Source: Oscillospiraceae bacterium (GTDB taxonomy: Bacteria > Bacillota > Clostridia > Oscillospirales > Oscillospiraceae). From it: a stretch of DNA of 37,955 nucleotides. The notes under the pieces were generated by a model. That model made no database searches. It was not told the DNA's origin and saw nothing but the letters and a program-made list of their open reading frames with translations. The position numbers and the translations under genes were made by a program. This document shows positions 10,304 through 27,765 of this stretch, one piece after another (the first letter of the stretch is position 1; the number at the start of each line of letters is the position of its first letter). The DNA lies in the NCBI GenBank assembly GCA_017458085.1, contig JAFTGE010000013.1, positions 1 through 37,955 on the forward strand, given 5' to 3'.

Positions 10304-10765
10304 ATGAGCATTATCTGGAAGTACCTCGACAAACGTGCGGGTACGATTGCAGCAATTAAGGATTACAGCGCGATGGAGTTTATCATCAACAACACGGATG
10401 AAGAAATCCGTGCTGAGCGGGAAAAGATGATGGGTGTCGGAAGCCCGAACTGGGACGGCTTGCCGCATGTTCATAATCCGCAGGCTAGTGAGGAGCGCAT
10501 CTTAAACGGCATCGAGGAGATTGATGTCTTAAAGGAACGATACCGGCAGGCGGTGGAATACATGGACTGGTTCAAGCCCGCGTGGGATGAGCTGTCGGAG
10601 GAAGAACAGTTCGTGCTGGAGACATTCTTCAGCGAAGACAACGCATACGGCAACAATGCAGTCTACTACATTCAGGAGCACCTGCGGATTGAGCAGAGCA
10701 CGGCTTACAAGAGAAAAAACCGGGCTCTGGATCATCTGACAGTCCTGCTGTTTGGAAAAACGTGA
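10304..10765 (+). CDS. Sigma-like/ArpU-type late transcription regulator
   Basis: A 153-residue protein resembling the DUF1492/ArpU/RinA group of phage late-gene regulators. The C-terminus reads like a sigma-70 region 4 fold: LSEEEQFVLETFFSEDN, then YIQEHLRIEQSTAYKRKNRA as helix-turn-helix, then LDHLTVLLFGKT. Start with CGGAGGTAAAGGCTC. Its stop codon abuts the first of two identical promoter-like elements (10765 and 27771), so it is the best candidate to act on them. Family function is known only by analogy; target binding is inference. Confidence 0.72.
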   Translation: MSIIWKYLDKRAGTIAAIKDYSAMEFIINNTDEEIRAEREKMMGVGSPNWDGLPHVHNPQASEERILNGIEEIDVLKERYRQAVEYMDWFKPAWDELSEEEQFVLETFFSEDNAYGNNAVYYIQEHLRIEQSTAYKRKNRALDHLTVLLFGKT

Positions 10766-10821: not shown

Positions 10822-10829
10822 GTAGCGAA

Positions 10830-10859
10830 AGCCTTGTGGGGAAACCTGCAGGGCTTTTT
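10830..10859 (+). terminator. Leader terminator after late promoter copy 1
   Basis: AGCCTTGTGG pairs over 10 bp (three G-T pairs) with CTGCAGGGCT around the loop GGAAAC, followed by TTTTC. It sits between the promoter-like element and the GGAGG of the next gene, so a transcript would be only about 40 nt long unless the terminator is overridden. Confidence 0.65.
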
Positions 10860-10881
10860 CTATGCCGGAAAGGAGGCAGTG

Positions 10882-14558: not shown

Positions 14559-14775
14559 CCCGATTAACCATCCGAGCCATTATACCAGCGGCAACATTGA
14601 AGTGATCGACTTCATCGAAGACCAGAAGTTCCCGTATCACCTCGGGAACGCAATGAAATATATCTGTCGCGCCGGTAAAAAGGATCCCAATAAAACAATT
14701 GAAGATTTGTCCAAGGCAGTGTGGTACTTAAACCGGTATATCAAGCTGCTACAGGATGGAAAGGAACACACATGA
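14539..14775 (+). CDS. DUF3310 family protein (nucleotide-kinase-like phage protein)
   Basis: A 78-residue DUF3310 protein. Signatures: NDPINHPSHYTSGNIEVIDF, then FPYHLGNAMKYICRAGKKDP, then LSKAVWYLNRYI. The start at 14539 was chosen because a GGAGAGAAAGAGG SD lies just before it; the frame is open further upstream. The family is sometimes annotated as a nucleotide-kinase-related SaV-like protein, but activity is not established. Next to nrdD, which fits a nucleotide-supply context. Confidence 0.85.
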   Translation: MKNQMNDPINHPSHYTSGNIEVIDFIEDQKFPYHLGNAMKYICRAGKKDPNKTIEDLSKAVWYLNRYIKLLQDGKEHT

Positions 14776-16967
14776 AGATCATAAAGCGAGACGGACGCGA
14801 AGTCCTGTTTAATAGAAAGAAGATCATCGCGGCCATTGAATCAGCGAATGCAGATGTGCCGGATGATGCCATGAAGGATGTAGATATACAGGATGCGGCA
14901 GAAGAGATCGAGCGGCAGTGTGAGGCCACCGGACGCGCCATCCATGTGGAGGAGATACAGGATAAGGTACTCAATGAACTGGCCAGACATGGACATTTCA
15001 GGCTCATGCGGCATTACAGCGAGTATCGCCTGCAACATGACCAGCAAAGACGCCAGAACACGACGGACGGAAAAATCCTGTCGCTGATCGAGCGGAACAA
15101 CGAGGAGGCTAAGCAGGAGAACGCCAATAAGAATCCGGTCATCAATTCCACCCAGCGTGATTATATCGCCGGGGAAGTGAGCCGCGACATTACGCGAAGG
15201 ATCCTGCTGCCGGAGGATGTGGTGAAGGCGCACGATGAAGGAATCATCCATTTCCATGACAGCGATTATTTCATCCAGCACTCCCACAACTGCTGCCTCT
15301 TAAATCTGGAAGATATGCTCCAGAACGGCACAGTGATCTCGGGAACTATGATAGAAAAGCCGCACAGCTTTTATACCGCATGCAATGTCACCACACAGAT
15401 CGTAGCCCAGGTGGCATCAAACCAGTATGGCGGGCAGAGCTTTTCGCTTTCCCACCTTGCACCATTCGTGGATATCTCCCGGCAGAAGATCCGCAGAGAA
15501 ATACTGGAAGATATGAACAGCGATGTTGGTGTGAAGCTTACAGAGGACGAGGTCGATTACCTAACTGAAAAGAAGCTGCGCCGGGAAATTAGGTCGGGCG
15601 TTCAGACGATCCAATATCAGATCATCACGCTCATGACCTGCAACGGGCAGGCTCCGTTCGTGACGATGTTCATGTACTTAAATGAGGTGCCGGAGGGCAG
15701 GCTTCGCGATGACCTTGCGATCGTGATCGAGGAAGTATTAAAGCAGCGGATCGAGGGCGTAAAGAATGAAACCGGTGCATGGATCACACCGGCCTTCCCG
15801 AAACTGATCTATGTGCTTGATGCGGATAACGTATATCCCGGTACAAAGTACTATGCGCTGACCGAGCTTGCCGCAAGGTGTACGGCAAAGCGGATGGTAC
15901 CGGATTATATCAGCGCCAAGGTGATGAAGCGCCTGAAGGGTGAAGTTTACACCTGCATGGGGTGTCGCTCTTTCCTCACTCCGGACACGAAAGGCCTGAA
16001 TTCGGATGGCAGCCATAAGTATTATGGTAGGTTCAATCAAGGCGTGGTCACGATCAATCTAGTGGATGCGGCCTGCAGCAGCGGAGGCGATGAAGAGAAG
16101 TTCTGGGAGCTTATGGAAGAGCGGACAGAGCTTTGTAAAAAGGCACTCCTATGCAGGCACGAGCGCCTCAAAGGTACACCATCGGATGTGGCACCGATCC
16201 TCTGGCAGCATGGAGCGCTGGCGCGTTTGCAAAAGGGTGAAGTGATCGATCCGCTATTGTATGGCAATTACAGCACGATCTCCCTTGGCTATGCCGGTCT
16301 TGCTGAGTGCGTTTGCCGGATGAAAGGCTGCAGCCATACAGAGCCGGAGGGTAAAGAATTTGGTCTTGCAGTGATGCGATTCTTAAATGACAAATGCGCT
16401 GCATGGAGAGCCGAGACAAATATCAGTTTCTCCCTGTATGGCACACCGATGGAGAGCACAACGTATAAGTTTGCCAAGTGCCTGCAGCGTCGGTTTGGGA
16501 TCATCCCGCATGTGACAGATAAGAATTACATCACAAATTCGTATCATGTGCATGTGACAGAAGAGATTGATGCCTTTTCCAAGTTATCGCTGGAAGCAGA
16601 GTTTCAGGAGCTTTCACCCGGTGGCGCGATCAGCTATGTAGAGGTGCCGAACATGAAGGATAACATCCCTGCGGTGTTATCGATCATGCAGCATATCTAC
16701 GAGACGATCCTGTATGCGGAGCTTAACACAAAGAGTGACTACTGTCAGGCCTGCGGATATGACGGGGAGATCCGGATTGTGAATGACGACGGGAAGCTCG
16801 TCTGGGAGTGCCCGAACTGCGGCAATCGGGATGAGCGGAAGATGAATGTCGTAAGACGCGTGTGCGGCTACCTTGGGAGTAACTATTTCAACCAGGGCCG
16901 AACTGCGGAGATTGCTGACCGGGTGATGCATACCTCTGTCAGCCTGCTTAAGGAGGAGGGCATATGA
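14772..16967 (+). CDS. nrdD: Anaerobic ribonucleoside-triphosphate reductase
   Basis: Class III ribonucleotide reductase, 731 residues, reducing NTPs to dNTPs with a glycyl radical. The N-terminal ATP-cone is MKIIKRDGREVLFNRKK and onward. The catalytic barrel has HDSDYF, SHNCCLLNLEDML and TCNGQAPFVT. The C-terminal zinc site is CQACGY (about 658) and CPNCG (about 680), then the glycyl-radical motif RVCGYLG (about 696-702). The start overlaps the DUF3310 stop by ATGA; an upstream in-frame start is rejected. It needs NrdG, encoded next, and works only without oxygen, so the host is an anaerobe. Confidence 0.96.
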   Translation: MKIIKRDGREVLFNRKKIIAAIESANADVPDDAMKDVDIQDAAEEIERQCEATGRAIHVEEIQDKVLNELARHGHFRLMRHYSEYRLQHDQQRRQNTTDGKILSLIERNNEEAKQENANKNPVINSTQRDYIAGEVSRDITRRILLPEDVVKAHDEGIIHFHDSDYFIQHSHNCCLLNLEDMLQNGTVISGTMIEKPHSFYTACNVTTQIVAQVASNQYGGQSFSLSHLAPFVDISRQKIRREILEDMNSDVGVKLTEDEVDYLTEKKLRREIRSGVQTIQYQIITLMTCNGQAPFVTMFMYLNEVPEGRLRDDLAIVIEEVLKQRIEGVKNETGAWITPAFPKLIYVLDADNVYPGTKYYALTELAARCTAKRMVPDYISAKVMKRLKGEVYTCMGCRSFLTPDTKGLNSDGSHKYYGRFNQGVVTINLVDAACSSGGDEEKFWELMEERTELCKKALLCRHERLKGTPSDVAPILWQHGALARLQKGEVIDPLLYGNYSTISLGYAGLAECVCRMKGCSHTEPEGKEFGLAVMRFLNDKCAAWRAETNISFSLYGTPMESTTYKFAKCLQRRFGIIPHVTDKNYITNSYHVHVTEEIDAFSKLSLEAEFQELSPGGAISYVEVPNMKDNIPAVLSIMQHIYETILYAELNTKSDYCQACGYDGEIRIVNDDGKLVWECPNCGNRDERKMNVVRRVCGYLGSNYFNQGRTAEIADRVMHTSVSLLKEEGI

Positions 16968-17479
16968 ACGTGTGCGATATCGTGATCGCGGATCACGCCA
17001 ATGGCCCGGGGATGCGGGTGTCTGTATTTGTTTCCGGCTGCCGGAATCACTGCCCGGGATGCTTTAACCCGGAGACCTGGGACTTTGCTGCTGGAAAGGA
17101 ATACACGTCTTTCATGACGCAGGCGATCATAAATGAACTGAAGAAACCCAGCTATCAGGGACTGACGATTCTTGGCGGGGAGCCCTTCGAGATTGAAAAT
17201 CAGAAAGGCCTGATTGATCTTATTCGGAGAGTCCGGGAGGAACTTCCGGAGAAAGATATCTGGATGTACACCGGATATGACTATGAGGATTTACTGCCGG
17301 GTGGGAAACGCCACACTGATGTTACGGATGAGATTCTGGAAGCCATCGCTGTTCTGGTGGATGGCAGGTTTATCCTTGACGAGAAGGATATCTCTTTACA
17401 GTTCCGGGGATCCAGAAATCAGCGCCTGATCGATATGAAGCGGACGCGCAAGGAAGGACTGGTGATCCTATGCGAGTGA
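16964..17479 (+). CDS. nrdG: Anaerobic ribonucleotide reductase activating protein
   Basis: A 171-residue radical-SAM activase that installs the glycyl radical on NrdD. The cluster motif is CRNHCPGC (Cys 26, 30, 33; CX3CX2C) in VSGCRNHCPGCFNPETWDF. ILGGEPFE is the GGE motif, and WMYTGYDYEDL follows. Start overlaps nrdD by 4 bases with AAGGAGGAGGGCAT. It uses SAM, tying it to the phage metK upstream. Confidence 0.95.
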   Translation: MNVCDIVIADHANGPGMRVSVFVSGCRNHCPGCFNPETWDFAAGKEYTSFMTQAIINELKKPSYQGLTILGGEPFEIENQKGLIDLIRRVREELPEKDIWMYTGYDYEDLLPGGKRHTDVTDEILEAIAVLVDGRFILDEKDISLQFRGSRNQRLIDMKRTRKEGLVILCE

Positions 17480-17691: not shown

Positions 17692-18951
17692 ATGAAGACA
17701 GCTGAATTGAAGGTGCTGCCGGTCACTGTATTAAAACCGGCAGAATATAATCCGCGAAAGAAACTGAAAGCGGGCGATAAGGAATACGAGAAGATCAAAG
17801 CCTCTATTGAGGAGTTTGGCTTTGCGGATCCGCTGGTGGTCAATGCCGATATGACGATCATTGGCGGCCATCAGAGACTGACGGTGGCGCAGGATCTGGG
17901 TTACACCGAGGTGCCTTGTGCGGTCGTGAATATCGATAAGGTCAGAGAAAAGGCTCTCAATATCGCGCTGAACAAGATCACCGGTGCATGGGATGAAAAC
18001 CTGCTTGCAGAACTGCTGCAGGATATTCAGGACTCCGACTTTGATCTTGGAAAGACCGGATTTGACCCGCCTGAAATCGAGACCCTGTTCAATAAGGTAC
18101 ACGACAAGAGCGTGGCGGAAGACGACTTCGATGTGGAAAGTGAGCTCTCCCAGCCAGTGTTCTCGAAACTTGGCGACCTGTGGGAGCTTGGGAAGCACAA
18201 GGTGCTGTGCGCCGACTCTACCGATAATGAGAACTACGTCAAGCTTATGGATGGCATGAAAGCCAACCTGATCCTGACGGATCCTCCGTATAACGTAAAC
18301 GTGGAGGAGACCGCAGGCAAGATCATGAATGACAACATGGCCGACGAGGATTTTTACAAATTCCTGCTGGCAGCCTATCAGGCAATGCACGCCAACCTTG
18401 CCGATGACGGCTCCATCTACGTCTTTCATGCTGATACCGAAGGGCTGAATTTCCGTAAGGCATTCCATGACGCGGGATTTTATCTATCCGGATGCTGTAT
18501 CTGGAAAAAGAACGCGCTGGTGCTTGGCAGGAGCCCGTACCAGTGGATCCATGAACCGTGTCTTTTTGGTTGGAAGCAGACTGGGAAGCATCAGTGGTAT
18601 TCTGACCGGAAGCAGACAACCGTCTGGGAGTATGATCGTCCGAAGGCCAGCAAAGATCATCCGACGATGAAGCCGATCGGACTGATGAGCTATCCGATCC
18701 GGAATTCTACTATGACAAATGGCATCGTGCTGGATCCCTTCCTTGGCAGCGGAAGTACGCTCATTGCCTGCTGCGAGACCGACCGGATCTGCAGAGGGAT
18801 TGAACTGGATCCCAAGTTTGTGGACGTAATCGTTAAGCGCTACATCGAGTGGAACGATGGCAGGTATGACGGTGTATTTGTCTGGCGTGATGGGCAGAAG
18901 CTCCGGTTCGATGAAGTGGCGGCCTTCGAACCGCAGGAGGCAACGGAATGA
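17692..18951 (+). CDS. ParB-domain DNA methyltransferase fusion
   Basis: A 419-residue protein. Residues about 1-110 are a ParB/Srx-like domain (KPAEYNPRKKL, then FADPLVVNADMTIIGGHQRL). Residues about 165-400 are a beta-order methyltransferase: motif IV LTDPPYNV (about 195-202) and SAM site LDPFLGSGSTLIACCETDR (about 346-364). The DPPY form is typical of N6-adenine enzymes. ParB-MTase fusions are common in phages; the ParB part may bind DNA or NTP. It complements the SPPY-type methyltransferase at 13051. Confidence 0.93.
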   Translation: MKTAELKVLPVTVLKPAEYNPRKKLKAGDKEYEKIKASIEEFGFADPLVVNADMTIIGGHQRLTVAQDLGYTEVPCAVVNIDKVREKALNIALNKITGAWDENLLAELLQDIQDSDFDLGKTGFDPPEIETLFNKVHDKSVAEDDFDVESELSQPVFSKLGDLWELGKHKVLCADSTDNENYVKLMDGMKANLILTDPPYNVNVEETAGKIMNDNMADEDFYKFLLAAYQAMHANLADDGSIYVFHADTEGLNFRKAFHDAGFYLSGCCIWKKNALVLGRSPYQWIHEPCLFGWKQTGKHQWYSDRKQTTVWEYDRPKASKDHPTMKPIGLMSYPIRNSTMTNGIVLDPFLGSGSTLIACCETDRICRGIELDPKFVDVIVKRYIEWNDGRYDGVFVWRDGQKLRFDEVAAFEPQEATE

Positions 18952-19103
18952 TCATCCTGTGGATTTTATTTATCGTGGTATCTCTCGTCTTCACGCTGCT
19001 TGCGGCAGGGTGGCTTGCCATTAACATTGTCGCCGACGTGTTCAGGCATATGGAGATGAAAGAGGAGTGGGAGAATAGCCAGAAAAGGAATACCGGAAGG
19101 TAA
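18948..19103 (+). CDS. Small membrane protein, 51 aa
   Basis: ATGA overlap with the methyltransferase stop, with CGCAGGAGGCAACGGA as SD. A hydrophobic N-terminal half (IILWILFIVVSLVFTLLAAG) predicts one membrane span, followed by a charged tail. Last gene before a hairpin terminator. Function unknown. Confidence 0.65.
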   Translation: MIILWILFIVVSLVFTLLAAGWLAINIVADVFRHMEMKEEWENSQKRNTGR

Positions 19104-19118
19104 TACACTAAGCACAGG

Positions 19119-19140
19119 GGCACCGAAAGCCGGTGCCTTT
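19119..19140 (+). terminator. Hairpin terminator closing the metabolic block
   Basis: GGCACCG-AAAGC-CGGTGCC stem-loop followed by TTTGTG. The T-run is short, so termination may be partial. It marks the boundary to the cassette array. Confidence 0.5.
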
Positions 19141-19191
19141 GTGACTTCTGACAAAAGTGAGAAATAACAGAAAAAGCCCTTTACTTTTCAG

Positions 19192-19221
19192 GCGTTTAGA
19201 GGGATGTATAGCATACCCAAA
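19192..19221 (+). repeat. Degenerate copy of the cassette leader core
   Basis: GCGTTTAGAGGGATGTATAG followed by CATACCCAAAA aligns without gaps to the CGTTTAGAGTGATTAATAC-ACTACCGAAAG core of the later leaders. It ends about 28 bases before the next ATG, as in the other copies. It lacks the upstream TGTGCACA inverted repeat. Confidence 0.5.
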
Positions 19222-19249
19222 ATTCAGAACGCAGAAAGGAGTGTAAATC

Positions 19250-20164
19250 ATGCTGACATTTGAACTGAACATCAATGACCGCAAGAAGCTCATCAAGAAG
19301 GTATCGGAGATGACCGGACAAGAGGCCATCTACCTGCAGCCGCCGACATATGCCTACCAGATCGGTGATTACAACATCGATCGTGACGGCAACCTGTCCG
19401 TAGAGGAGGATAAAGCTGACCTCATGATGCTAATGCAGCTCATGGGAGAGGGCTTCCTCAAGGAAAAGGCCATTGGAACGGCAGCCGGTGAAGTGATGCC
19501 GGTCTCCGTAAACATCGAGATTCCGCTTTCCGGACACACCGGAGCCAGTCTCAGAAATCTCATCAACCTCGTACACTCCCGGGCATCGCTGATCAACAAG
19601 GCGACCGGGAGTGAGTTTTTTATCGACAAAGGGATCACGGATCTTCTTGCAGATGACGGGAACGTCGGAGCAATCGATGTATTAAAGAAGGTGGTCAAGG
19701 ATTACGTGAAGGAACATCCCGGTGCCATGAAGGGCTTTGAGCTCGCTGATGATCGGATCTGCTTTACCGGCTTCCCCGATTTTACAGACACCCTGACACT
19801 GAAGGCATGGATGGATCTGGCATCGCTCATGAATAAGCAGGCCATCGACCAGCACCGGATTCAGGCAAAGACCGTGAGCGAGGCGAACGAGAAATATTCC
19901 TTTAGGATCTGGCTGATCCGGCTCGGAATGAATGGGGATGAGTACAAGCGCACAAGGAAGATCCTCATGAAGCGTCTCGGTGGCCACTCGGCTTTCCGCA
20001 CACCGGAGGAGATCGAGCGGGCAAAGGAGAAGGCACTAAGGAAACGAAGAGAGTTGAAGGCCGCAAAAGAAGCAGCACTTGCAGAAGGCGCTGAGGAGAT
20101 GGCAGACGAGCAGGCTGAGGTGGCTGAAGAACCTGCTTTAGAAGCTGAAGAAGAGACCGAATAA
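19250..20164 (+). CDS. Protein sharing a C-terminal module with the neighbouring amidoligase, 304 aa
   Basis: Not recognised by a named family. The N-terminal 200 residues are mixed alpha/beta (MLTFELNINDRKKLIKKVSE, then VSVNIEIPLSGHTGASLRNL). Residues 215-250 match residues 276-311 of the amidoligase encoded next, with 17 of 36 identical by my hand alignment, including RxWLIRxGxxGxE and the closing AFR. After this come a basic Arg/Lys helix (EKALRKRRELKAAKEAA) and a very acidic Glu/Ala tail ending in EEETE. The duplicate module and Glu-rich tail make it a candidate partner or substrate of the amidoligase; this is inference. SD AAAGGAG. Confidence 0.7.
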   Translation: MLTFELNINDRKKLIKKVSEMTGQEAIYLQPPTYAYQIGDYNIDRDGNLSVEEDKADLMMLMQLMGEGFLKEKAIGTAAGEVMPVSVNIEIPLSGHTGASLRNLINLVHSRASLINKATGSEFFIDKGITDLLADDGNVGAIDVLKKVVKDYVKEHPGAMKGFELADDRICFTGFPDFTDTLTLKAWMDLASLMNKQAIDQHRIQAKTVSEANEKYSFRIWLIRLGMNGDEYKRTRKILMKRLGGHSAFRTPEEIERAKEKALRKRRELKAAKEAALAEGAEEMADEQAEVAEEPALEAEEETE

Positions 20165-20258
20165 TGCACAGTTTACCGCGAAATCTTTGTGCATTTTACA
20201 GGTCAGAATTAACTGGATAAATGTGCTCTTTAGAGTGATTAATACAGTACCGAAAGGG
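20163..20258 (+). repeat. Cassette leader repeat, copy 1
   Basis: Starts within the previous stop codon. Inverted repeat AATGCACA (20163) / TGTGCATT (20188), then AACTGGATA, then the core TTTAGAGTGATTAATACAGT with ACCGAAAGG, 33 bases before the amidoligase ATG. Confidence 0.75.
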
Positions 20259-20290
20259 AAAAACACACACGCAGGAAGGAGCACACCACC

Positions 20291-21241
20291 ATGAAAGAAG
20301 CCACCAGAATCCAGATCGAAGCCATGAAAAATCAGACCATCGGAGTTGAGGTCGAGATGTACGGAATCAGCCGCAGGGATGCAGCTAAGATTGCCGCCAC
20401 CTACTTCGGAACAGGACGGTTTGAAAACACAGCCTACAGAAACGGATACCAGACCTGGAGCGCTTGGGATGAGCAGGATCGGGAGTGGAAATTCCAAAGA
20501 GACAGCAGCATCATGGCCGCCAAGGACGATGAAAAATGCGAGCTGGTCACCCCGATCCTCACCTACGAGGACATCGAAGGCTTGCAGGAGCTGATCAGAC
20601 AGCTGAGGCATAGCAAAGCCAAGAGCGATCCGGAGCACATGTGCGGAGTCCACATCCACATCGGAGCGGATGGGCATACCGCTAAGACCCTCCGTAACCT
20701 CGCAAACTTGATGGCAAGCCACGAGAACCTCCTGATCAGCGCCCTGCGGCTTGACCGGACACGGATCAACCATTACTGCAGGACGGTCGATGAGAATTTT
20801 CTCACCCTCCTGAACCGGAAAAAGCCCCAGCGCATGAGCCAGCTCGCAGACATCTGGTACAACGGCAATCACGCCAACACATGTCGGAACCACCATTACA
20901 ACGATTCGCGCTACCATATGCTTAACCTGCACGCGACCTTTACGAAGGGCACGATCGAGTTCCGCCTCTTCCAGTTCGCGAACAAAGGAAACGGAAGGCT
21001 CGGCGGCCTGCATGCCGGGGAACTGAAGAGTTACATCCAGCTTTGCCTCGCGCTTTCCGCACAGGCGAAACTTGCCAGCAAGGCCAGCCCGAAACAGCCA
21101 CAGGTCGAGAACCCGAAATTTGCGATGCGCACCTGGCTGATCCGGATGGGATTCATCGGAGCGGAATTCGAGACAGCCCGCGACATCCTGACAAGGAACC
21201 TTGCAGGCGACGCGGCCTTCAGAAACGGCAGAACGGCATAA
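20291..21241 (+). CDS. Amidoligase-family enzyme
   Basis: A 316-residue protein resembling the amidoligase (Amidoligase_2) family, glutamine-synthetase-fold enzymes that form amide bonds with ATP. Seen: GVEVEMYG near the start (acidic metal ligands E20, E22), FQRDSSI, CGVHIHIG (about 117-124), and TIEFRLFQFANKG (about 221-233). These match the GxExE, HIH and ExR motifs of the fold. C-terminal residues 276-311 form a module shared with the preceding 304-aa protein. Next comes a gamma-glutamylcyclotransferase gene, a known pairing for amidoligases. The substrate is unknown: peptide, cell-wall fragment or a partner protein. Its leader is a cassette repeat. Confidence 0.82.
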   Translation: MKEATRIQIEAMKNQTIGVEVEMYGISRRDAAKIAATYFGTGRFENTAYRNGYQTWSAWDEQDREWKFQRDSSIMAAKDDEKCELVTPILTYEDIEGLQELIRQLRHSKAKSDPEHMCGVHIHIGADGHTAKTLRNLANLMASHENLLISALRLDRTRINHYCRTVDENFLTLLNRKKPQRMSQLADIWYNGNHANTCRNHHYNDSRYHMLNLHATFTKGTIEFRLFQFANKGNGRLGGLHAGELKSYIQLCLALSAQAKLASKASPKQPQVENPKFAMRTWLIRMGFIGAEFETARDILTRNLAGDAAFRNGRTA

Positions 21242-21261
21242 ACGATGGAGACAGCCTCCTC

Positions 21262-21298
21262 CTACCGAAACCGCCAGAGAGCGGTCTTTCGGTGGTAG
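21262..21298 (+). other. Intercistronic hairpin
   Basis: CTACC-GAAA-CCGC pairs with GCGG-TTTC-GGTAG, with small bulges, between the amidoligase and cyclotransferase genes. No T-run follows, so it is more likely an RNA processing or stability element than a terminator. Confidence 0.45.
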
Positions 21299-21340
21299 AA
21301 GGGTATCCCCTTCAGAAATAGAGAAAGGATGGTACGACAA

Positions 21341-21853
21341 ATGAAATTCTACTTAGCCTATGGCAGCAACTTATCCGTGGAGCAGATGCGGTATCGGTGC
21401 CCTGATGCTAAACATATCGGGACAGCGGAGATTAAAGATTACCGGCTTCTTTTTAAGGGAAGCAAGACCGGCAGCTACTTAACCATCGAGCCGATGGAAG
21501 GCCGGAAGGTTCCGGTGCTGGTCTGGGAGGTTTCCGATGAGGATGAGGCATCCCTTGACATCTACGAAGGTTATCCGGTCTTTTACCAGAAGCACGAAAT
21601 GGAAGTCGATGTGAAGAGCCTGACAGGCAGTGAACCGATCGGCAAAGTAAACGCATTCGTGTACGCCATGGATCCTGAGAGGCCGCTTGGACAGCCTACG
21701 CTTAGCTACTACAGGGTCTGCTCCAATGGTTATGACCGGTTTGGTTTTGACCAGAAGATCCTTGAGAAGGCTTACGATGAGAGCTGGGGTGAAATCGTAA
21801 AGAGAAGGTTTGACATATCACGGATGAAGCTATTTACAGGAGGGAGCAATTGA
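21341..21853 (+). CDS. Gamma-glutamylcyclotransferase-like protein (AIG2/GGCT fold)
   Basis: A 170-residue GGCT-fold protein: YLAYGSNLSVEQM at the N-terminus (substrate-binding YGSN), and catalytic acid E76 in LDIYEGYPVFYQK. Family members cleave gamma-glutamyl amine or amide bonds by cyclisation. Start at 21341 preferred (AAAGGATGG about 10 bases before) over a Met at 21329, which would sit on the SD. Coupled with the amidoligase, it may reverse or trim the ligase product. This array unit has no leader repeat of its own, so it is probably co-transcribed with the amidoligase. Confidence 0.88.
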   Translation: MKFYLAYGSNLSVEQMRYRCPDAKHIGTAEIKDYRLLFKGSKTGSYLTIEPMEGRKVPVLVWEVSDEDEASLDIYEGYPVFYQKHEMEVDVKSLTGSEPIGKVNAFVYAMDPERPLGQPTLSYYRVCSNGYDRFGFDQKILEKAYDESWGEIVKRRFDISRMKLFTGGSN

Positions 21854-22314
21854 TGAGGTTTGCAACAAGAGAAGAAGTCGAGCTGCTCCGGAGGCACTAC
21901 ATTCCCGGATCACGCATCGTGCTGGATGAGATGGATGACCCGTATACGAAGATCCCAGCAGGGACGCAGGCAGTTGTGACCGGTGTCGATGACGCTGGCA
22001 ATATCCTCTGCCACTGGGATACCGGCAGTTCCCTGTCGGTGGCGTTTGGCGCGGACCGGGCGCACCTTGTGAGATCGGAGGAAGAGATCCGGGTCTCCTT
22101 AAACTGGCTCGGGAAGCGGCAGGAAAAGGCCACAGGCGGCAGCTGTCCGAGGTGCGGAGGACCGCTTGCCAGCTTCAAAGGGCATGTTATCAGCAGACGG
22201 GCAATGATCACGGTGTGTGATGAATGTGGCATGGATGAGGCATTTGAGGATGCTGGACTGCTTCCAAAGATGGAGCTTGAGCGCTGGCACTGCGTCGGCA
22301 TCTGGGAGCCATAA
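21853..22314 (+). CDS. DUF4314 protein with C-terminal zinc ribbon
   Basis: Residues about 15-80 are DUF4314: YIPGSRIVLDEMDDPYTKIP, AGTQAVVTGVDDAGNILCHW and GSSLSVAFGAD, a small beta-barrel resembling SH3 or KOW folds. Residues about 97-130 add CPRCGGPL and VCDECGMDE, a zinc ribbon. Start at the TTGATG junction with the previous gene, with GGAGGG. DUF4314 is common in clostridial conjugative elements and phages, often near amidoligases; function unknown. Confidence 0.82.
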   Translation: MRFATREEVELLRRHYIPGSRIVLDEMDDPYTKIPAGTQAVVTGVDDAGNILCHWDTGSSLSVAFGADRAHLVRSEEEIRVSLNWLGKRQEKATGGSCPRCGGPLASFKGHVISRRAMITVCDECGMDEAFEDAGLLPKMELERWHCVGIWEP

Positions 22315-22420
22315 AGTACACAGTTTCTGCAGCTGATCTTTGTGCAGTAATCCTCTGATAATAAAGCAGAATTGACTTGCTATATGTGCCCGTCAGAGTG
22401 ATTAATACACTACCAAAAGA
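22315..22420 (+). repeat. Cassette leader repeat, copy 2
   Basis: Starts right after the DUF4314 stop. TACACAGTTTCTGC with TTTGTGCA as a weak inverted repeat, then ATTGACTTGCTATATG, then CGTCAGAGTGATTAATAC followed by ACTACCAAAAG, 29 bases before the next ATG. Confidence 0.75.
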
Positions 22421-22448
22421 AAACAGCACCTTAAAGGAGGAACCAGAC

Positions 22449-22919
22449 ATGACAACCAACAACACCTACTTCGCAGAGCTTGACCAGATCGCCAGAGCAT
22501 TTGATGAAAAGCGCAGAGCCCACGAGGCAAAGAAACAGCAGATCCTCGACACCTACGGCTGGGACAGCGAAGAGCTGAATGCCTGGTACCGGGAGAAAGA
22601 GGAGATGGCCTACCCGATCAGCGAAGGAGCCTGCAAGGCATTCAGAGCCTTCCGCATGAGCGAAGAGAGAAACAGCAGCGAGTTCGAGATGGAGGATTTC
22701 CTTTGGGAGCGCGAGGTTGCGGATTTCATTAACGCACTGCGGCAGGCCGGAATCAAGACCTTCGCCTACACCAACCAGAGCACGGCAGTGATGGAAAACA
22801 TCCACGCCTTTGTAGCAGTAGGCTGCACGATGGACGGCCTTTGCACGGTGACAAGGCAGGAGCGCCGCTGGGGCGAGGATGAGACCACCGAGCACATCGG
22901 GATCCGGTTCACGGTTTAA
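22449..22919 (+). CDS. Hypothetical cassette protein, 156 aa
   Basis: N-terminal helix-rich part (FAELDQIARAFDEKRRAHEA and onward), then a C-terminal alpha/beta domain (FINALRQAGIKTFAYTNQST, then AFVAVGCTMDGLCTVTRQE). Strongly charged. The start at 22449 follows AAAGGAGGAACCAGAC; an upstream in-frame start lies inside the leader repeat and is rejected. This domain type recurs in small-gene arrays of clostridial mobile elements, but I cannot name a function. Confidence 0.68.
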   Translation: MTTNNTYFAELDQIARAFDEKRRAHEAKKQQILDTYGWDSEELNAWYREKEEMAYPISEGACKAFRAFRMSEERNSSEFEMEDFLWEREVADFINALRQAGIKTFAYTNQSTAVMENIHAFVAVGCTMDGLCTVTRQERRWGEDETTEHIGIRFTV

Positions 22920-22931
22920 GGGAGGCACCAG

Positions 22932-23135
22932 ATGAACATCGCCGACAAGATGGAAATGGAGGCGAGGCTGATTGCAAACCTCGCCTCTCATATGGAGAAG
23001 AATGGCAGGGTCATTTCCGATAGGAGCCGCAGCAATCCCTACACGTGCGTCCGAATCCAGCGGATTGCATGGAAGGATCGCGTATACGAGATCGTCTGGG
23101 TGGACGGTATGGCCTGCCGGATCGAGCGGCAATAA
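22932..23135 (+). CDS. Hypothetical cassette protein, 67 aa
   Basis: Same cassette as the previous gene, 12 bases downstream with GGGAGGCACCAG. Small basic protein with an N-terminal helix (ADKMEMEARLIANLASHMEK) and C-terminal beta strands (VRIQRIAWKDRVYEIVWVDG). No family recognised. Its stop lies at the edge of the next leader repeat. Confidence 0.65.
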   Translation: MNIADKMEMEARLIANLASHMEKNGRVISDRSRSNPYTCVRIQRIAWKDRVYEIVWVDGMACRIERQ

Positions 23136-23231
23136 TACACACAATTTCTGCCGCCAATCTTTGTGCACATTATGACGCAGATATGAGTTGCTATATATCC
23201 CGTTTAGAGTGATTAATACACTACCGAAAGG
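23134..23231 (+). repeat. Cassette leader repeat, copy 3
   Basis: AATACACACAA pairs imperfectly with TTTGTGCACATT, then GAGTTGCTATATAT, then CGTTTAGAGTGATTAATAC followed by ACTACCGAAAGG, 26 bases before the next ATG. Confidence 0.78.
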
Positions 23232-23257
23232 AAAACACAACAAACGGAGGAACCACC

Positions 23258-23584
23258 ATGAACGCATACGAACTGAGAAACCACTTCAACCTGACCAAAT
23301 GGAACACCGCAATCAGCCGCGAGGATTTCGAACAGCATTTCACCCAGACCGGGGAGCGGATCACTTTCACTTTCGGAGGGTGGGACGGCAAGAGCTACGA
23401 CGGCGAGAGCAGAACAGCACGGGTTTACCGGACGGACATCCTGGGCTACGAAGAGGTCAGGCTGATCAAGGTCGGAAAGCACCTGCATTACATCGAAGAA
23501 GACACCGAGGTGGTGGAGAAGACTACCGGCATCGCCCACAAGAGAGCCAGCTGGCTGGTCGAGGTACTGAGGAAGGAGGCATAA
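23258..23584 (+). CDS. Hypothetical cassette protein, 108 aa
   Basis: Mixed alpha/beta with FGGWDGKSYDGESRTARVYR and YEEVRLIKVGKHLHYIEED in the middle and a helical end (AHKRASWLVEVLRKEA). SD CGGAGGAACCACC. Not recognised. Small, charged and non-conserved, it has the profile of phage accessory or anti-defence proteins, but nothing in the sequence proves this. Confidence 0.66.
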   Translation: MNAYELRNHFNLTKWNTAISREDFEQHFTQTGERITFTFGGWDGKSYDGESRTARVYRTDILGYEEVRLIKVGKHLHYIEEDTEVVEKTTGIAHKRASWLVEVLRKEA

Positions 23585-23588
23585 GGAA

Positions 23589-23837
23589 ATGTGGAGCAAG
23601 GGAAGCATCAAGATCCCAGACCCGGAAGATAAGGAGAAGAACACCATCTGCCAGTACTGGGTCAAGCACTACGATGAGCCAAGTGAGATATGGGGCATCA
23701 ATGGCGGCAGGATCAGCAAGCTGATGATCAAGGTTAATGGTAAGGTCACGGCCAGCTACGACAGAGGCTGGGACGTGGAGCCGGAGGATGAGCCGACGCA
23801 GCTGGCATACTGGATCCTGTTGAAAGACTACAACTAA
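23589..23837 (+). CDS. Hypothetical cassette protein, 82 aa
   Basis: Follows the previous gene by 4 bases, in the same cassette, with GGAGGCATAAGGAA as SD. Beta-rich: CQYWVKHYDEPSEIWGINGG, then KLMIKVNGKVTASYDRGWD, then an acidic patch and YWILLKDYN. Similar small proteins occur in clostridial mobile elements; function unknown. Confidence 0.68.
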   Translation: MWSKGSIKIPDPEDKEKNTICQYWVKHYDEPSEIWGINGGRISKLMIKVNGKVTASYDRGWDVEPEDEPTQLAYWILLKDYN

Positions 23838-23856
23838 AGCAAAGTGGCCGGGAACG

Positions 23857-23880
23857 CAGCCTGCGGGCTGCTTTTCTCGT
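23857..23880 (+). terminator. Cassette terminator (GCAGCC/GGCTGC)
   Basis: GCAGCC-TGCG-GGCTGC stem-loop followed by TTTTCTCG, 20 bases after the stop codon and directly before leader copy 4. Confidence 0.8.
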
Positions 23881-23883
23881 CAT

Positions 23884-23992
23884 AATGTGCACACTTCCTT
23901 CCCCGATTATTTGTGCACATTGTTCCCGGAAATCTTGCAGAATTGACTTGCTATTATCTCCGTTTAGAGTGATTAATACAATACCGAAAGGG
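23884..23992 (+). repeat. Cassette leader repeat, copy 4
   Basis: The clearest copy: perfect 10-bp inverted repeat AATGTGCACA (23884) / TGTGCACATT (23912), then ATTGACTTGCTATTATC, then CGTTTAGAGTGATTAATAC and AATACCGAAAGGG, 25 bases before the next ATG. Confidence 0.8.
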
Positions 23993-24016
23993 AAAACACA
24001 CGCGGGAGGAAACACC

Positions 24017-24187
24017 ATGAACACAACCTACACCTTCAAGAAGAACGGCAAGAGCTACAGCGCAAAAGGCAGCAACCGGTTCGACGCACAGCTTTCCATC
24101 GAGCTTGCCTACCACATCGACTTGACCGGCGCAACCTTCGAAGAAGTTTATAAGCTCCGGGTTGTGAGAACCGGCACGGTGCGATAA
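24017..24187 (+). CDS. Hypothetical cassette protein, 56 aa
   Basis: Small basic protein, beginning TYTFKKNGKSYSAKGSNRFD and ending VYKLRVVRTGTVR. SD GGGAGGAAACACC. It forms one cassette with the next gene. No family recognised. Confidence 0.62.
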   Translation: MNTTYTFKKNGKSYSAKGSNRFDAQLSIELAYHIDLTGATFEEVYKLRVVRTGTVR

Positions 24188-24219
24188 ACCCCACACTACC
24201 CTTTAAGGAGGTACCTACC

Positions 24220-24486
24220 ATGACACTTACCACCAACGCCAAACGCCACCTCGACACCCTGATCCGCCACGGCGCAGCACTCAAGGCTCATGACGGGAGC
24301 AGCCAGAGCCTGACTGAGGCTTTCTGCGAAAAGGCTGCTGCCGACTGCATCAAGGACGGCTACAACGCTATTACCTTCGACCTTCTTCTTCCGGGAATCG
24401 ACGAGCCCATGATGCTTGCCGTTTGGAAGGACGGTCACATCGATTCCGGCAGCGTGATGAGCATCTGCAGGGTGCTCGACCGGTAA
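24220..24486 (+). CDS. Hypothetical cassette protein, 88 aa
   Basis: Second gene of the cassette, 32 bases after the first, with AAGGAGGTACCTACC. N-terminal helices (AKRHLDTLIRHGAALKAHDG) and a beta part (GYNAITFDLLLPGIDEPMML). Followed by a strong terminator. Function unknown. Confidence 0.66.
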   Translation: MTLTTNAKRHLDTLIRHGAALKAHDGSSQSLTEAFCEKAAADCIKDGYNAITFDLLLPGIDEPMMLAVWKDGHIDSGSVMSICRVLDR

Positions 24487-24510
24487 GCCAGCCACATATA
24501 CACAGGAAGA

Positions 24511-24534
24511 GGCAGCCAAGCGGCTGCTTTTTTC
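24511..24534 (+). terminator. Cassette terminator (GCAGCC/GGCTGC)
   Basis: GCAGCC-AAGC-GGCTGC stem-loop followed by six T. Same stem as at 23857 and 25621, with a different loop. Confidence 0.85.
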
Positions 24535-24559
24535 GTGCCTGAAAGCGAACATAAACGGT

Positions 24560-24672
24560 TCTCCTGAGGTTAGAAATATGGACAAGAACACCTGCAAATG
24601 ATTGTGCAGATTATGTCCAGAAATGACTGGATATATATCTGGTTTAGAGTGATTAATAACACTACGAAAAGC
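24560..24672 (+). repeat. Cassette leader repeat, copy 5 (divergent)
   Basis: The 5' part is diverged and carries CTGAGGTTAGA (24564-24574), the motif also found in the 3.5-3.7 kb control region. ATTGTGCAGATT replaces the right arm of the inverted repeat. Then ATGACTGGATATATATC and GTTTAGAGTGATTAATA-ACACTACGAAAAG, 32 bases before the next ATG. It is the only full core with an inserted base. Confidence 0.7.
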
Positions 24673-24703
24673 CAATTCACACAGATCAAAGGAGGATACG
24701 ATC

Positions 24704-25042
24704 ATGGCAAGAAGCGCAGTTAGGACAACGAGAAGTGGCGAGAAGCTGTACCCGTTCAGCTTCCAGAAGCATGGGCACGATATTGAGTTCCGAATCAACC
24801 GGCTTTACCTTACCATCCGGGACATGGAGGATCACGAGACACCATGGGACGGGGCGGCTTACGACCAGATGGTCGCAGAAAAGGAGACCCTCGAGGAAGC
24901 CCTCGGATACTGTGACGGGCCGGTTTCCTTCATTCCTGGAAGACTATACGGGACGGTGAAGGACGCCATCTTCTGGGCAGGCAACACCAGAGCAGAGACA
25001 GCAATCCAGCACGGCAGATACCGTGACCTGATGCATTGCTAA
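24704..25042 (+). CDS. Hypothetical cassette protein, 112 aa
   Basis: Basic N-terminus (MARSAVRTTRSGEKLY), then a helical middle part (EFRINRLYLTIRDMEDHE) and VSFIPGRLYGTVKDAIFWAG. SD AAAGGAGGATACGATC. Not recognised. Single-gene cassette, followed by a weak hairpin terminator. Confidence 0.66.
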   Translation: MARSAVRTTRSGEKLYPFSFQKHGHDIEFRINRLYLTIRDMEDHETPWDGAAYDQMVAEKETLEEALGYCDGPVSFIPGRLYGTVKDAIFWAGNTRAETAIQHGRYRDLMHC

Positions 25043-25066
25043 AGGTCTGAGCCCGGATAGATGGGG

Positions 25067-25088
25067 AGGCAGCGGGAGCCGCTGTCTT
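25067..25088 (+). terminator. Cassette hairpin, weak terminator
   Basis: GGCAGCGG pairs with CCGCTGTC (one G-T pair) around a short loop, followed by a T-poor TTTCCG. It is a diverged relative of the other cassette terminators. Confidence 0.55.
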
Positions 25089-25096
25089 TCCGTCGT

Positions 25097-25195
25097 AATG
25101 TGCACAATATCCTCCTCCGATATTTGTTCAAGATATAAAGAAGAATTCGCTTGCTATTATCAGCGATCAGAGTGATTAATACACTACCAAAAGAA
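25097..25195 (+). repeat. Cassette leader repeat, copy 6
   Basis: AATGTGCACAATATC, then GATATTTGT (inner arms ACAATATC / GATATTTGT), then ATTCGCTTGCTATTATC, then GATCAGAGTGATTAATAC with ACTACCAAAAG, about 30 bases before the next ATG. Confidence 0.76.
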
Positions 25196-25223
25196 AACGC
25201 ACATAAACGGGAGGGCAAAGACC

Positions 25224-25595
25224 ATGACAAGATTTCAGATGGAGATCAGCGGAGCGCTTGGAGCATATTGGATCATCAGCGCACAGGAAGAGATGGAGAA
25301 GGCAGTCAAGTACGCAAGGGAAAACGCCATCGTCGAAGAGGACGGCGCGATCCGCTGGAAATCAAACGGCGCTTACCTGATGGATGACTTTTGCGAGAAG
25401 CTTGAATACGCAGGATTCCCCTTCTCAAGGAAAGCCACACAGGCCGCCAGAGAGGCGCAGGACGCGGCATTCCTGAAAAGGTACCGGGAAACCAACAGGG
25501 GAATGGACGAGGCCACAAAGGCGGAAGCACGGGCGGCATTCGGCGAAGGAACTACGATCGTGGACGTCCTGAGCGGAGAGAAGATCACCCTTTAA
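25224..25595 (+). CDS. Hypothetical cassette protein, 123 aa
   Basis: Last gene of the array. Helical and charged: QMEISGALGAYWIISAQEEM, AVKYARENAIVEEDGAIRWK, then a coiled-coil-like Ala/Glu/Lys part and TTIVDVLSGEKITL. SD GGGAGGGCAAAGACC. No family recognised. Followed by a strong terminator before the packaging genes. Confidence 0.66.
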   Translation: MTRFQMEISGALGAYWIISAQEEMEKAVKYARENAIVEEDGAIRWKSNGAYLMDDFCEKLEYAGFPFSRKATQAAREAQDAAFLKRYRETNRGMDEATKAEARAAFGEGTTIVDVLSGEKITL

Positions 25596-25620
25596 GGAAA
25601 AATATACAGACAACACAAAG

Positions 25621-25642
25621 GCAGCCTTCGGGCTGCTTTTTT
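25621..25642 (+). terminator. Terminator between cassette array and terminase genes
   Basis: GCAGCC-TTCG-GGCTGC stem-loop followed by six T, then CATGGGAAAGGAGG and the terminase start. It ends the array and also sits in the leader of the packaging operon. Confidence 0.85.
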
Positions 25643-25663
25643 CATGGGAAAGGAGGTGCCGAC

Positions 25664-26137
25664 ATGGCAACCAGAGGAAGAAAGCCGACACCGACGGCAC
25701 TAAAGGAACTGGAAGGGAATCCGGGAAAGCGGAAACTAAACGACAAGGAGCCGAAACCCAATAAGAAGGCTCCATCCTGCCCGAAGTGGCTGGAGGAAGA
25801 GGCAAAGAAGGAATGGAAACGTCTCGCTAAAAAGATGGAGGCGATGGGCATCCTGACAGAGGTGGATATGGCAGCTTTTGCCGGATACTGTCAGGCCTAT
25901 GCCAGATGGAAAGAGGCAGAGGAATTTATCACCCAGCACGGTACGATCGTAAAGACGCCATCCGGGTACTGGCAGCAGGTTCCGCAGGTCTCCATTGCGC
26001 AGACCTATCTTAAGGTCATGAACCGTTTTGCTGAACAGTTCGGTCTGACACCGGCATCCAGAAGCCGGATCGTTGCAGACAGCACCAGCAATGCAGGATA
26101 CGACGAAATGGAGGATATCTTGGGAGGTGGTAGCTGA
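25664..26137 (+). CDS. terS: Terminase small subunit, P27 family
   Basis: A 157-residue P27-type small terminase, which recognises the packaging site and loads the large subunit. Family start: ATRGRKPTPTALKELEGNPG and KRKLNDKEPKP. The helical core includes CPKWLEEEAKKEWKRLAKKM, DMAAFAGYCQAYARWKEAEE and NRFAEQFGLTPASRSRI. SD AAAGGAGGTGCCGAC. Stop and terL start share a base (TGATG). Confidence 0.93.
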   Translation: MATRGRKPTPTALKELEGNPGKRKLNDKEPKPNKKAPSCPKWLEEEAKKEWKRLAKKMEAMGILTEVDMAAFAGYCQAYARWKEAEEFITQHGTIVKTPSGYWQQVPQVSIAQTYLKVMNRFAEQFGLTPASRSRIVADSTSNAGYDEMEDILGGGS

Positions 26138-27765
26138 TGGCAGAAATGCGTCCTGCAGATTATCCAAAACTGCAGAATTATACACCCACCCGGTTCATGC
26201 TGGAGACCTCGCATTATGATGAGGAGAAGGCCGACCGGGCGGTGCGCTTTATTGAAAACTTAAAACACACCAAGGGCAAGTGGGCTGGAAAGCGCTTCTG
26301 GCTGCTGCCGTGGCAGGAGCAGATCATCCGGGATATCTTTGGAGTTATCAAGGAAGATGGGAAGCGCCAGTTCCGGACAGCTTACATTGAGATCGGAAAG
26401 AAGAATGGCAAATCCGAGCTTGCTGCAGCGGTGGCGTTGTACCTTCTGTATGCGGATAATGAGCCGTCAGCGGAAGTGTACGGCGCTGCGGCAGACCGGC
26501 AGCAGGCCTCCATCGTTTTTGATGTGGCAAAAAAGATGACAGAGATGACACCGGCGCTCATAAAGCGCTCCAAGATCATGGCGGCAACCAAGCGGATCGT
26601 CAATTACAGCAATGCCGGATTCTATCAGGTACTGTCTGCAGAGGTGGGCACCAAACACGGTCTGAACGTTTCCGGCCTTGTCCTTGACGAGGTTCACGCG
26701 CAGCCAAACCGGCAGCTCTACGATGTCCTGACCAAAGGTTCCGGTGATGCCAGAGAACAGCCACTGTATTTTTTGATCACGACAGCCGGGACGGATAAGG
26801 AATCGATCTGTTATGAGCTGCATACCAAGGCACTGGATATCATGGAAGGGCGGAAGATCGACCACACTTTTTATCCTGTTGTGTATGGGCTGAAGGATGA
26901 TGACGACTGGCATGATGAGGACAACTGGTATAAGGCAAATCCCTCCCTCGGTCAGACGATTCAGATTGACCGCGTCCGGGACATGTATAATGAAGCACTG
27001 GACAATCCTGCAGAGGAGAACGTGTTCAAGCAGCTTAGGCTTAACATGTGGGTCTCTTCCCTCACCCGCTTCATTCCGGAGCATATTTATGATCTTGGGG
27101 ACAAGCCGATCGATCTGGAGGCGCTAAAGGGGCGTGACTGTTATGGCGGCCTTGACCTTTCGAGCACCGGCGACATCACAGCGTTTGTATTGATGTTTCC
27201 TCCACGATCTGAGTATGAAGATTATATTATGCTGCCATTCTTCTGGATCCCGGAGGATACGATCCCGCTACGGGTCAGGAGGGCATCCGTGCCATACGAT
27301 GTCTGGCACCGGCAGGGGTATCTGAATGCGACAGAAGGAAATGTCATCCACTACGGTTTTATCGAAAAGTTTATCGAAGACCTGGGTGAGACCTACCATA
27401 TCCGGGAGATCGCTTTCGACCGCTGGGGTGCAACCCAGATGGTGCAGGATCTGGAGGGCATGGGCTTTACGGTTGTTCCCTTCGGTCAGGGCTACAAGGA
27501 TATGAGCCCGCCGACAAAGGAGTTCTATAAACTCCTGATGGAGGGAAAGATCAACCATGGCGGCAACCCGGTAATGCGGTGGATGTCCGGAAACGTTGTG
27601 GTGGATACAGATCCTGCGGGCAATATCAAATGCACCAAGGCAAAGAGTCCGGAGAAGATCGATGGCATTATTGCCGCCATTATGGCGCTTGACAGGTGTA
27701 TCCGTAACGGTAATGGGTCAGGAAGTATCTATGATGATCCTGATCGTGGCCTGTTGGTGTTCTGA
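26137..27765 (+). CDS. terL: Terminase large subunit
   Basis: A 542-residue packaging motor of the Terminase_1 (HK97-like) group. The ATPase has Walker A GKKNGKSELAAA (about 87-98) and Walker B LVLDEVHAQ with D184/E185. The coupling motif is LITTAGTDKES. The nuclease domain begins at YGGLDLSSTGDITAF, and the C-terminal acidic residue lies in KIDGIIAAIMALDR. Length is typical. It lies directly after terS and 144 bp before the portal gene, with the second late promoter between. Confidence 0.96.
   Translation: MAEMRPADYPKLQNYTPTRFMLETSHYDEEKADRAVRFIENLKHTKGKWAGKRFWLLPWQEQIIRDIFGVIKEDGKRQFRTAYIEIGKKNGKSELAAAVALYLLYADNEPSAEVYGAAADRQQASIVFDVAKKMTEMTPALIKRSKIMAATKRIVNYSNAGFYQVLSAEVGTKHGLNVSGLVLDEVHAQPNRQLYDVLTKGSGDAREQPLYFLITTAGTDKESICYELHTKALDIMEGRKIDHTFYPVVYGLKDDDDWHDEDNWYKANPSLGQTIQIDRVRDMYNEALDNPAEENVFKQLRLNMWVSSLTRFIPEHIYDLGDKPIDLEALKGRDCYGGLDLSSTGDITAFVLMFPPRSEYEDYIMLPFFWIPEDTIPLRVRRASVPYDVWHRQGYLNATEGNVIHYGFIEKFIEDLGETYHIREIAFDRWGATQMVQDLEGMGFTVVPFGQGYKDMSPPTKEFYKLLMEGKINHGGNPVMRWMSGNVVVDTDPAGNIKCTKAKSPEKIDGIIAAIMALDRCIRNGNGSGSIYDDPDRGLLVF

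Follow-up and report, generated by a model that had tools for sequence, protein, structure and literature searches.

Temperate phages carry morons, genes that bring their own promoter and terminator, lie between phage genes and are present or absent among relatives, and the promoters of classical morons are unrelated to one another. In cluster K mycobacteriophages, the ESAS/SAS system consists of a repeat element with putative sigma-A hexamers 17-18 bp apart, followed by a 13-bp start sequence, GGGATAGGAGCCC, as set out in the accessible parts of the two reports (PMC3203893, PMC11373665). In phage T4, genes e, soc, 49 and I-TevI have a hairpin that covers the ribosome site, with a late promoter embedded in the DNA for its 5' arm (PMC3014915, PMC2988022, both in excerpt). 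The Ca. Heliusviridae/Heliusvirales, a very common group of gut phages, share genes for DUF2800, DUF2815, DNA polymerase I, a VRR-NUC nuclease, an SNF2 helicase, the terminase large subunit, portal, Clp protease and major capsid, according to the available portion of PMC9226167. Here we analysed a stretch of 37,955 nucleotides from an Oscillospiraceae bacterium (assembly GCA_017458085.1, contig JAFTGE010000013.1, forward strand), referred to as the window, in which six similar leader sequences each precede a cassette of one or more genes.

These leaders are probably DNA promoter modules, and the cassettes moron-like accessory genes of a temperate gut phage under one regulon; we read the leader as a DNA rather than an RNA control mainly because its upstream repeat shifts in helical steps. 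This suggests that related gut phages switch on their accessory genes together. Such genes are difficult to locate in gut phages, and a shared control sequence can serve as a tag for swappable genes in this phage group. It groups dozens of protein families without an assigned function into one candidate regulon, and makes the timing of accessory genes and the activating factor testable by a single RNA experiment.

The nearest described systems are the cluster K ESAS/SAS elements and the T4 gene e hairpins, and the cassette idea itself is that of the morons. As with ESAS/SAS, in so far as the accessible text describes it, a repeated element stands ahead of many different small genes in one phage group, combines an imperfect inverted repeat, a promoter-like part and a conserved stretch near the start codon, and is present or absent ahead of a given gene family. 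The leaders differ from ESAS/SAS by the lack of a standout sigma-A consensus and by a repeat that shifts in helical steps, and GGGATAGGAGCCC is not enriched in the window (8 matches at up to 3 mismatches against 10.7 expected). As the window shows neither sequence hallmark, the leaders would work like ESAS/SAS without being one of them. As in the T4 hairpins, going by the excerpts, RNA started at the cassette's own promoter would lack the hairpin arm, so that only read-through RNA would be locked; here, however, such a lock is predicted for only a minority of leaders. The likeness to morons lies, in loci of related phages rather than in the six window cassettes themselves, in an insertion between the terminase and portal genes (loci L306 and L265 compared to L313) and in the absence of cassettes with contiguous flanks from relatives (L313; L180 compared to L093; L200 compared to L117). 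It may extend to an own terminator, seen behind three of the six window cassettes. The sharing of one control module sets the cassettes apart from classical morons. Seven of the nine genes of the Ca. Heliusviridae/Heliusvirales set were found in the window by Pfam, and among the phage records inspected the top-listed leader matches belong to Ca. Heliusvirales by label. In the available text of PMC9226167 a term search returned 'promoter', 'motif' and 'amidoligase' zero times, so that the leader module appears undescribed in that part of the Heliusviridae paper, and none of three core strings turned up in the open-licence papers searched.

Results and discussion

Leader anatomy in the window and in related phages

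Each leader consists of an upstream inverted repeat, a TTGCTA or TGGATA block, 12 variable bases, AGAGYGAWWAT...ACC, a ribosome site and an ATG (Table 1). An earlier sequence-only reading had listed six full leaders and a degenerate core at 19192, with parts at near-fixed spacing and cores ending 25-33 bases ahead of an ATG. Both our own reading and a pattern scan of the window recover these copies: TKGMTA-N12-AGAGYGAWWWW gives six zero-mismatch matches, and seven at up to two mismatches where 0.29 are expected from shuffles. The degenerate core lacks a TTGCTA/TGGATA block at -18 as well as a clear inverted repeat. The distance to the ATG is close to the one claimed, at about 26-34 bases after the GAAAG-type end. 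The spacing proved stricter in one part and looser in another: the gap from TTGCTA to AGAG is exactly 12 in all six leaders, but the inverted repeat takes two registers about 10 bp apart, with TTTGTG at -46 (cores 20232 and 23206), like positions at about -45 (cores 24646 and 25169) and TTTGTG at -56 (cores 22395 and 23966), the repeat being weakest in leader 5. The GCAGCC/GGCTGC terminators with T tails, said to end several cassettes, stand at 23856, 24512 and 25621, behind three of the six. The description of the genes as small and unrelated holds in part only, since cassette 1 encodes a 316-aa amidoligase together with two further proteins, a gamma-glutamyl cyclotransferase and one with DUF4314. 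Within its own genome (93.5% complete), the exact core AGAGTGATTAATA has six copies, all of them in the window and on the + strand; copies with a changed core were sought genome-wide only via a TTGCTAT-type pattern, which recovers just four of the six window leaders.

The same anatomy is found in related phages. Among 205 AGAGTGATTAATACnnTA cores, a TTGCTA-type block lies exactly 12 bases ahead of AGAG in 188 and at 13 in one, and is absent from 15; these cores (loci L007-L200) were picked by core alone and not de-duplicated, the ten entries at 17 are TTGACT hits, and a separate locus set selected with the 12-base gap was excluded as evidence for the spacing. A rare natural leader with a 13-base gap is found in L133 (reverse strand, around 6166). 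The core occurs as AGAGTGATTAATA, AGAGCGAATATG and AGAGTGATATATA, and the rarer cores GACGGTAATATG or AGAGGTAATATC stand behind the same inverted repeat, the consensus of which is approximately ATAAAnTRCACAA...TTGTGYAnTTTAT. From the right half-site to the TTGCTA block the distance is 26-27 bp in 193 of 235 pairs, another 19 pairs having 37-38 bp and another 11 having 15-17 bp (together 223 of 235), a pair being defined as a TTGTGYA-type half-site followed within 15-44 bp by a TTGCTA-type block, without de-duplication; both main registers are found within the window itself. Steps of 10-11 bp correspond to one helical turn and thereby point to a repeat-bound protein that has to be turned towards RNA polymerase. 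Full repeats number 296 near leaders and 36 elsewhere (5.4 Mb, both strands), and several of these 36 precede leader variants with a different core.

For the tests described below, 467 leader hits were reduced to 337 non-redundant leaders, of which 317 were tested and 308 had a ribosome site; those that lacked a start codon or had flanks too short had been dropped beforehand. Leaders ahead of different genes in the same phage resemble each other more (core identity 0.75, 186 pairs) than leaders ahead of the same gene in different phages (0.66, 16,951 pairs), and two leaders of one phage have the same core type in 0.597 of pairs, compared to 0.395 ± 0.031 after shuffling, as expected if one factor serves all leaders of a phage or if leaders are copied within it. 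Strict terminators lie immediately upstream of 25 of 309 leaders, compared to 30 of 1058 other open reading frames (ORFs) and 6 of 804 random places.

Spread and turnover of the cassettes

A scan of viral contigs with the core pattern gave at least 120 stretches, many of them by chance, and at least 20 contigs with two to six leaders, while the 20-base core was matched in 61 stretches of species genomes. The TTGCTAT-type pattern has 37 matches (four of them in the own genome) in 19 of 398 genomes of the phylum, the own genome included, and none in the reversed control. Outside the own genome, 27 genomic loci were examined: 23 hold an amidoligase gene of these phages, two a serine recombinase and two neither. 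Leader 3 is matched by 62 records of annotated phages at a permissive limit, 18 of which cover at least 80% of it; the leader is also present in a Terrisporobacter phage and in Erysipelothrix phage phi1605, and Streptococcus phage Javan191 has one leader ahead of its integrase gene. Viral contig L102 bears a Twister-sister ribozyme at 8093-8174 (84.2 bits, gathering threshold 34), about 550 bases ahead of its first leader core.

Behind 407 leaders with an ORF we counted roughly 72 protein families, 38 of them single; a further 89 of 496 leaders, with no ORF called right behind, were left out of this count. The commonest cassette genes are amidoligases, and DUF7698, DUF7678, Nmad4, the ELRNHF family and serine recombinases recur. 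Among the small proteins, for which the sequence-only reading had considered anti-defence or host-takeover roles, one common cassette encodes the Nmad4-domain protein, and others are DUFs or gave no match in the searches made. Sixty-six loci in which both the amidoligase and the terminase are visible show 54 distinct gene orders between these two genes, with 0 to 4 leaders each. A 349-bp unit of leader and gene is present in L093 and absent from L180, the flanks being 89 and 96% identical; L117 has 688 bp, including one leader, that L200 lacks (flanks 90 and 92% identical); and two leaders with their genes and a terminator separate the terminase and portal genes of L306 and L265, which are nearly contiguous in L313. 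In the four insertions or deletions compared at base level, the gained unit holds whole leaders. The prediction of plug-in cassettes with shared control DNA, to be found ahead of other small genes in Firmicute phages, is thus borne out by the gene orders, the clean insertions and deletions and the variety of families; a fixed gene set in a single lineage is not what we found, as orders vary and the named hosts belong to several Firmicutes families.

The same reading had placed the exchange at the leaders themselves, and here the support is partial. Among 45 rearranged pairs, 18 have the join in the shorter locus at a leader edge (12 if only the 34 distinct joins are counted), 2 have it within a leader and 25 have it elsewhere, where random positions would give 2.6 at an edge and 2.0 inside. 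Because the edge zones were set after the distances had been seen, the pairs lack independence and alignment ends are drawn to the edges of a conserved leader, we consider exchange by homology at the leaders no more than plausible. In L031, L058, L071 and L165 compared to L170, the leader is kept and the gene just behind it differs, the alignments stopping 74-76 bases past the core and, in the longer locus, starting again about 280 bases further on.

A proposed promoter with a helix-phased activator

In the proposed mechanism, a DNA-binding factor of phage or host would sit on the inverted repeat (TRCACAA...TTGTGYA) and contact RNA polymerase at the rigid unit TTGCTA-N12-AGAGYGAWWAT. The leader would thus have promoter activity, the factor would act as an activator rather than a repressor, and a single factor would serve all copies. 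The own terminators of several cassettes would allow a leader and gene, sometimes with the terminator, to be gained or lost without disturbing the neighbours, and the shared leader sequence may also supply the homology for exchange.

The leading suspect for the leader-binding factor is the product of the gene at 10304-10765, a tentative assignment that may well prove wrong. Its best match is phrog_8834, with no function assigned, and it is weakly ArpU-like (16.9 bits against the ArpU-type NCBIfam model, cut-off 43.1). The model of the product (mean pLDDT 82.8) is helical, three helices forming a C-terminal unit, and no solved structure was matched by sequence (best E 0.14). Relatives of this gene comprise 49 viral ones; of 26 contigs tested, mostly longer ones, 22 bear leaders, with no control matches, a co-occurrence that may reflect common descent only.

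Several observations weigh against the promoter reading or this assignment. Four of these 26 contigs show no leader, and the gene product shares only 15-22% identity with the proteins at the corresponding place in six related phages, five of which have the repeat, which weakens its case as the factor. A sigma-A consensus scan of 19000-26200 yields no good promoter (3 matches against 4.6 expected), the sole match on a leader being at 23943-23970 with a spacing of 16, and three -10 registers (-14, -1 and +5) score alike over the 317 leaders. The repeat is undetected in 99 of 337 leaders by a permissive test and in 200 of 336 by a stricter one, and by eye most leaders ahead of serine recombinase genes lack it. 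For the two amidoligase-type genes of the same phage, treated as a single gene (35 pairs), the leaders show no greater likeness than other leaders do (core 0.68). Finally, a pure DNA promoter leaves unexplained that the spacer is more complementary to its own downstream region than to those of other leaders.

Predicted pairing of the spacer with the ribosome site

This complementarity is what speaks for an alternative that we consider unlikely as a whole, namely that the leader works chiefly as RNA, the spacer arm and the Shine-Dalgarno region forming a hairpin with the core as its loop that controls translation, either as a riboregulator or as a read-through lock of the T4 gene e type. The 11 bases ahead of AGAG vary widely, and yet this arm (-11 to -1) pairs better with its own downstream region (mean -8.00 kcal/mol) than with those of other leaders (-6.90 kcal/mol; difference -1.10 ± 0.12), where five other test windows differ by 0.14-0.36 kcal/mol. 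When arms are swapped only within a contig, the difference is -0.89 ± 0.18 kcal/mol, compared to -0.04 to -0.26 for the other test windows. Inverted complements of at least 7 nt are present in 49 of 317 leaders (15.5%) compared to 6.2 ± 1.0% after swapping (direct repeats 0.9% compared to 0.3%), 37 of the 49 overlapping the ribosome site, and a pair-probability test gives z values of 5.5 for 241 long and 3.6 for 76 short leaders. The predicted effect on the ribosome site is small, however: over 308 leaders its unpaired fraction is 0.342 with the own arm, 0.377 with a foreign arm and 0.372 with a foreign -40 to -13 block, and the share of leaders in a lock-like class is 24% with the own arm and 13% when the arm is foreign. 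Four window leaders entered this access test, and only leader 3 (23206) looks locked. Moreover, the TTGCTA block shows no pairing excess, a position-by-position pairing map has no clear hot spot above the control quadrant, Rfam gives no match to a known structured RNA family at the leaders of the window or of the five loci scanned, and the helical steps of the repeat require a DNA explanation.

Under the promoter reading, this pairing can be taken as a second layer: in the folding predictions the spacer has a tendency to pair with the ribosome-site region of its own leader, and clearly hides the ribosome site only in a minority of leaders. That the phages follow a two-layer standard, a helix-phased-activator promoter whose spacer encodes the arm closing a hairpin over the gene's ribosome site, seems to us improbable. 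If it were true, a cassette would be silent on read-through RNA and active only from its own promoter, the shared leader would give the homology for exchange, and genes would be pluggable at many places without mis-expression.

Unlikely readings: recombination sites and conjugative elements

The turnover of cassettes and the 18 of 45 joins at leader edges (2.6 expected), along with serine recombinase (integrase) genes directly behind 16 leaders (L112, L134, L201, L226, L331 and 11 others), would also fit leaders that are dedicated recombination sites for a phage serine recombinase, their position ahead of genes being secondary. We regard this as very unlikely, given that ahead of serine recombinase genes the unit distance and ribosome site are like those ahead of other genes, that joins inside a leader stay at chance level (2 of 45), that inspection by eye shows no palindrome of the conserved halves around a centre and that plain homologous exchange explains the leader-edge joins equally well.

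Small genes behind a shared, repeat-containing leader resemble the leading regions of conjugative elements, and the sequence-only reading had drawn that kinship. Single-strand promoters of this type with anti-defence genes are scarcely credible here, as the window is a tailed prophage in which the array is enclosed by a ParB-domain methylase gene (17692-18951) and a terminase small subunit gene (25664), directly followed by terminase large subunit, portal, Clp protease and capsid genes, 23 of the 27 outside loci carry the phage amidoligase gene, and the expected plasmid relatives came down to a single 20-base match in 72,556 plasmid records when leader 3 was the query (no search was aimed at a relaxase).

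Prophage context and other features

Table 1 Features of the leader-cassette array and the candidate regulator (window coordinates)
Feature	Position	Strand	Details
Candidate regulator	10304..10765	+	matches phage transcriptional activator families phrog_248/phrog_36; putative link to leaders
Degenerate core AGAGGGATGTATAG	19192..19249	+	precedes first amidoligase-like gene (19250-20164, phrog_2443)
Leader 1	20163..20290	+	repeat TGCACA 20165, TTTGTG 20186; TGGATA 20214-20219; 12-nt spacer; core AGAGTGATTAATAC from 20232
Cassette 1, first gene, Amidoligase_2 (PF12224), 316 aa	20291..21241	+	E 7.4e-54
Cassette 1, further genes	21329..22314	+	gamma-glutamyl cyclotransferase 21329-21853; DUF4314 protein 21850-22314
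Leader 2	22313..22448	+	repeat about 10 bp further upstream (TTTGTG -56); TTGCTA 22377; core from 22395
Cassette 2	22449..23135	+	DUF7698 protein 22449-22919; 67-aa protein 22932-23135
Leader 3	23129..23257	+	TTTGTG -46; TTGCTA 23188; core from 23206
Cassette 3	23258..23837	+	108-aa 'ELRNHF' family protein 23258-23584; DUF7678 protein 23589-23837
Intrinsic terminator after cassette 3	23856..23876	+	few bases ahead of leader 4
Leader 4	23879..24016	+	TTTGTG -56; TTGCTA 23948; core from 23966
Cassette 4	24017..24486	+	56-aa protein 24017-24187; 88-aa protein 24220-24486, without Pfam match
Intrinsic terminator after cassette 4	24512..24534	+	GCAGCC/GGCTGC, T tail
Leader 5	24575..24703	+	weaker repeat, TTGTG -44; TGGATA 24628; core from 24646
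Cassette 5, 112-aa protein	24704..25042	+	no Pfam, PHROGs or NCBIfam match
Leader 6	25092..25223	+	repeat TGTGCACA 25099, TTGTTC -45; TTGCTA 25151; core from 25169
Cassette 6, 123-aa protein	25224..25595	+	recurring family F21, 17 members in loci
Intrinsic terminator ending array	25621..25643	+	ahead of terminase small subunit gene

In the Ca. Heliusviridae/Heliusvirales gene set we take PF10991 to be the renamed DUF2815. The VRR-NUC nuclease candidate at 7990-8280 has no Pfam match at 0.001, and DNA polymerase I was not identified in the window, the left end of which was only partly scanned. The combination of amidoligase and gamma-glutamyl cyclotransferase genes seen in cassette 1 is also described in Clostridium clostridioforme prophages, where the authors, in the accessible part of their paper, propose that the amidoligase changes the surface against superinfection (PMC11318856).

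Contig 1 of genome G060 (L148) is 100% identical to window positions 19100-23230, and its end at 55283 falls inside leader 3; repeated leaders may break short-read assemblies and so hide cassettes. At 10816-12403 of the window, a MazF-like gene adjoins a candidate S-adenosylmethionine synthetase gene, presumably encoding that enzyme as far as we can read it, and the same phage has two methylase genes; in Erysipelothrix phage phi1605 an S-adenosylmethionine synthetase is annotated at the corresponding place. At 14721-17479 the phage also encodes an anaerobic ribonucleotide reductase small subunit, preceded by a gene that we take to be that of the large subunit.

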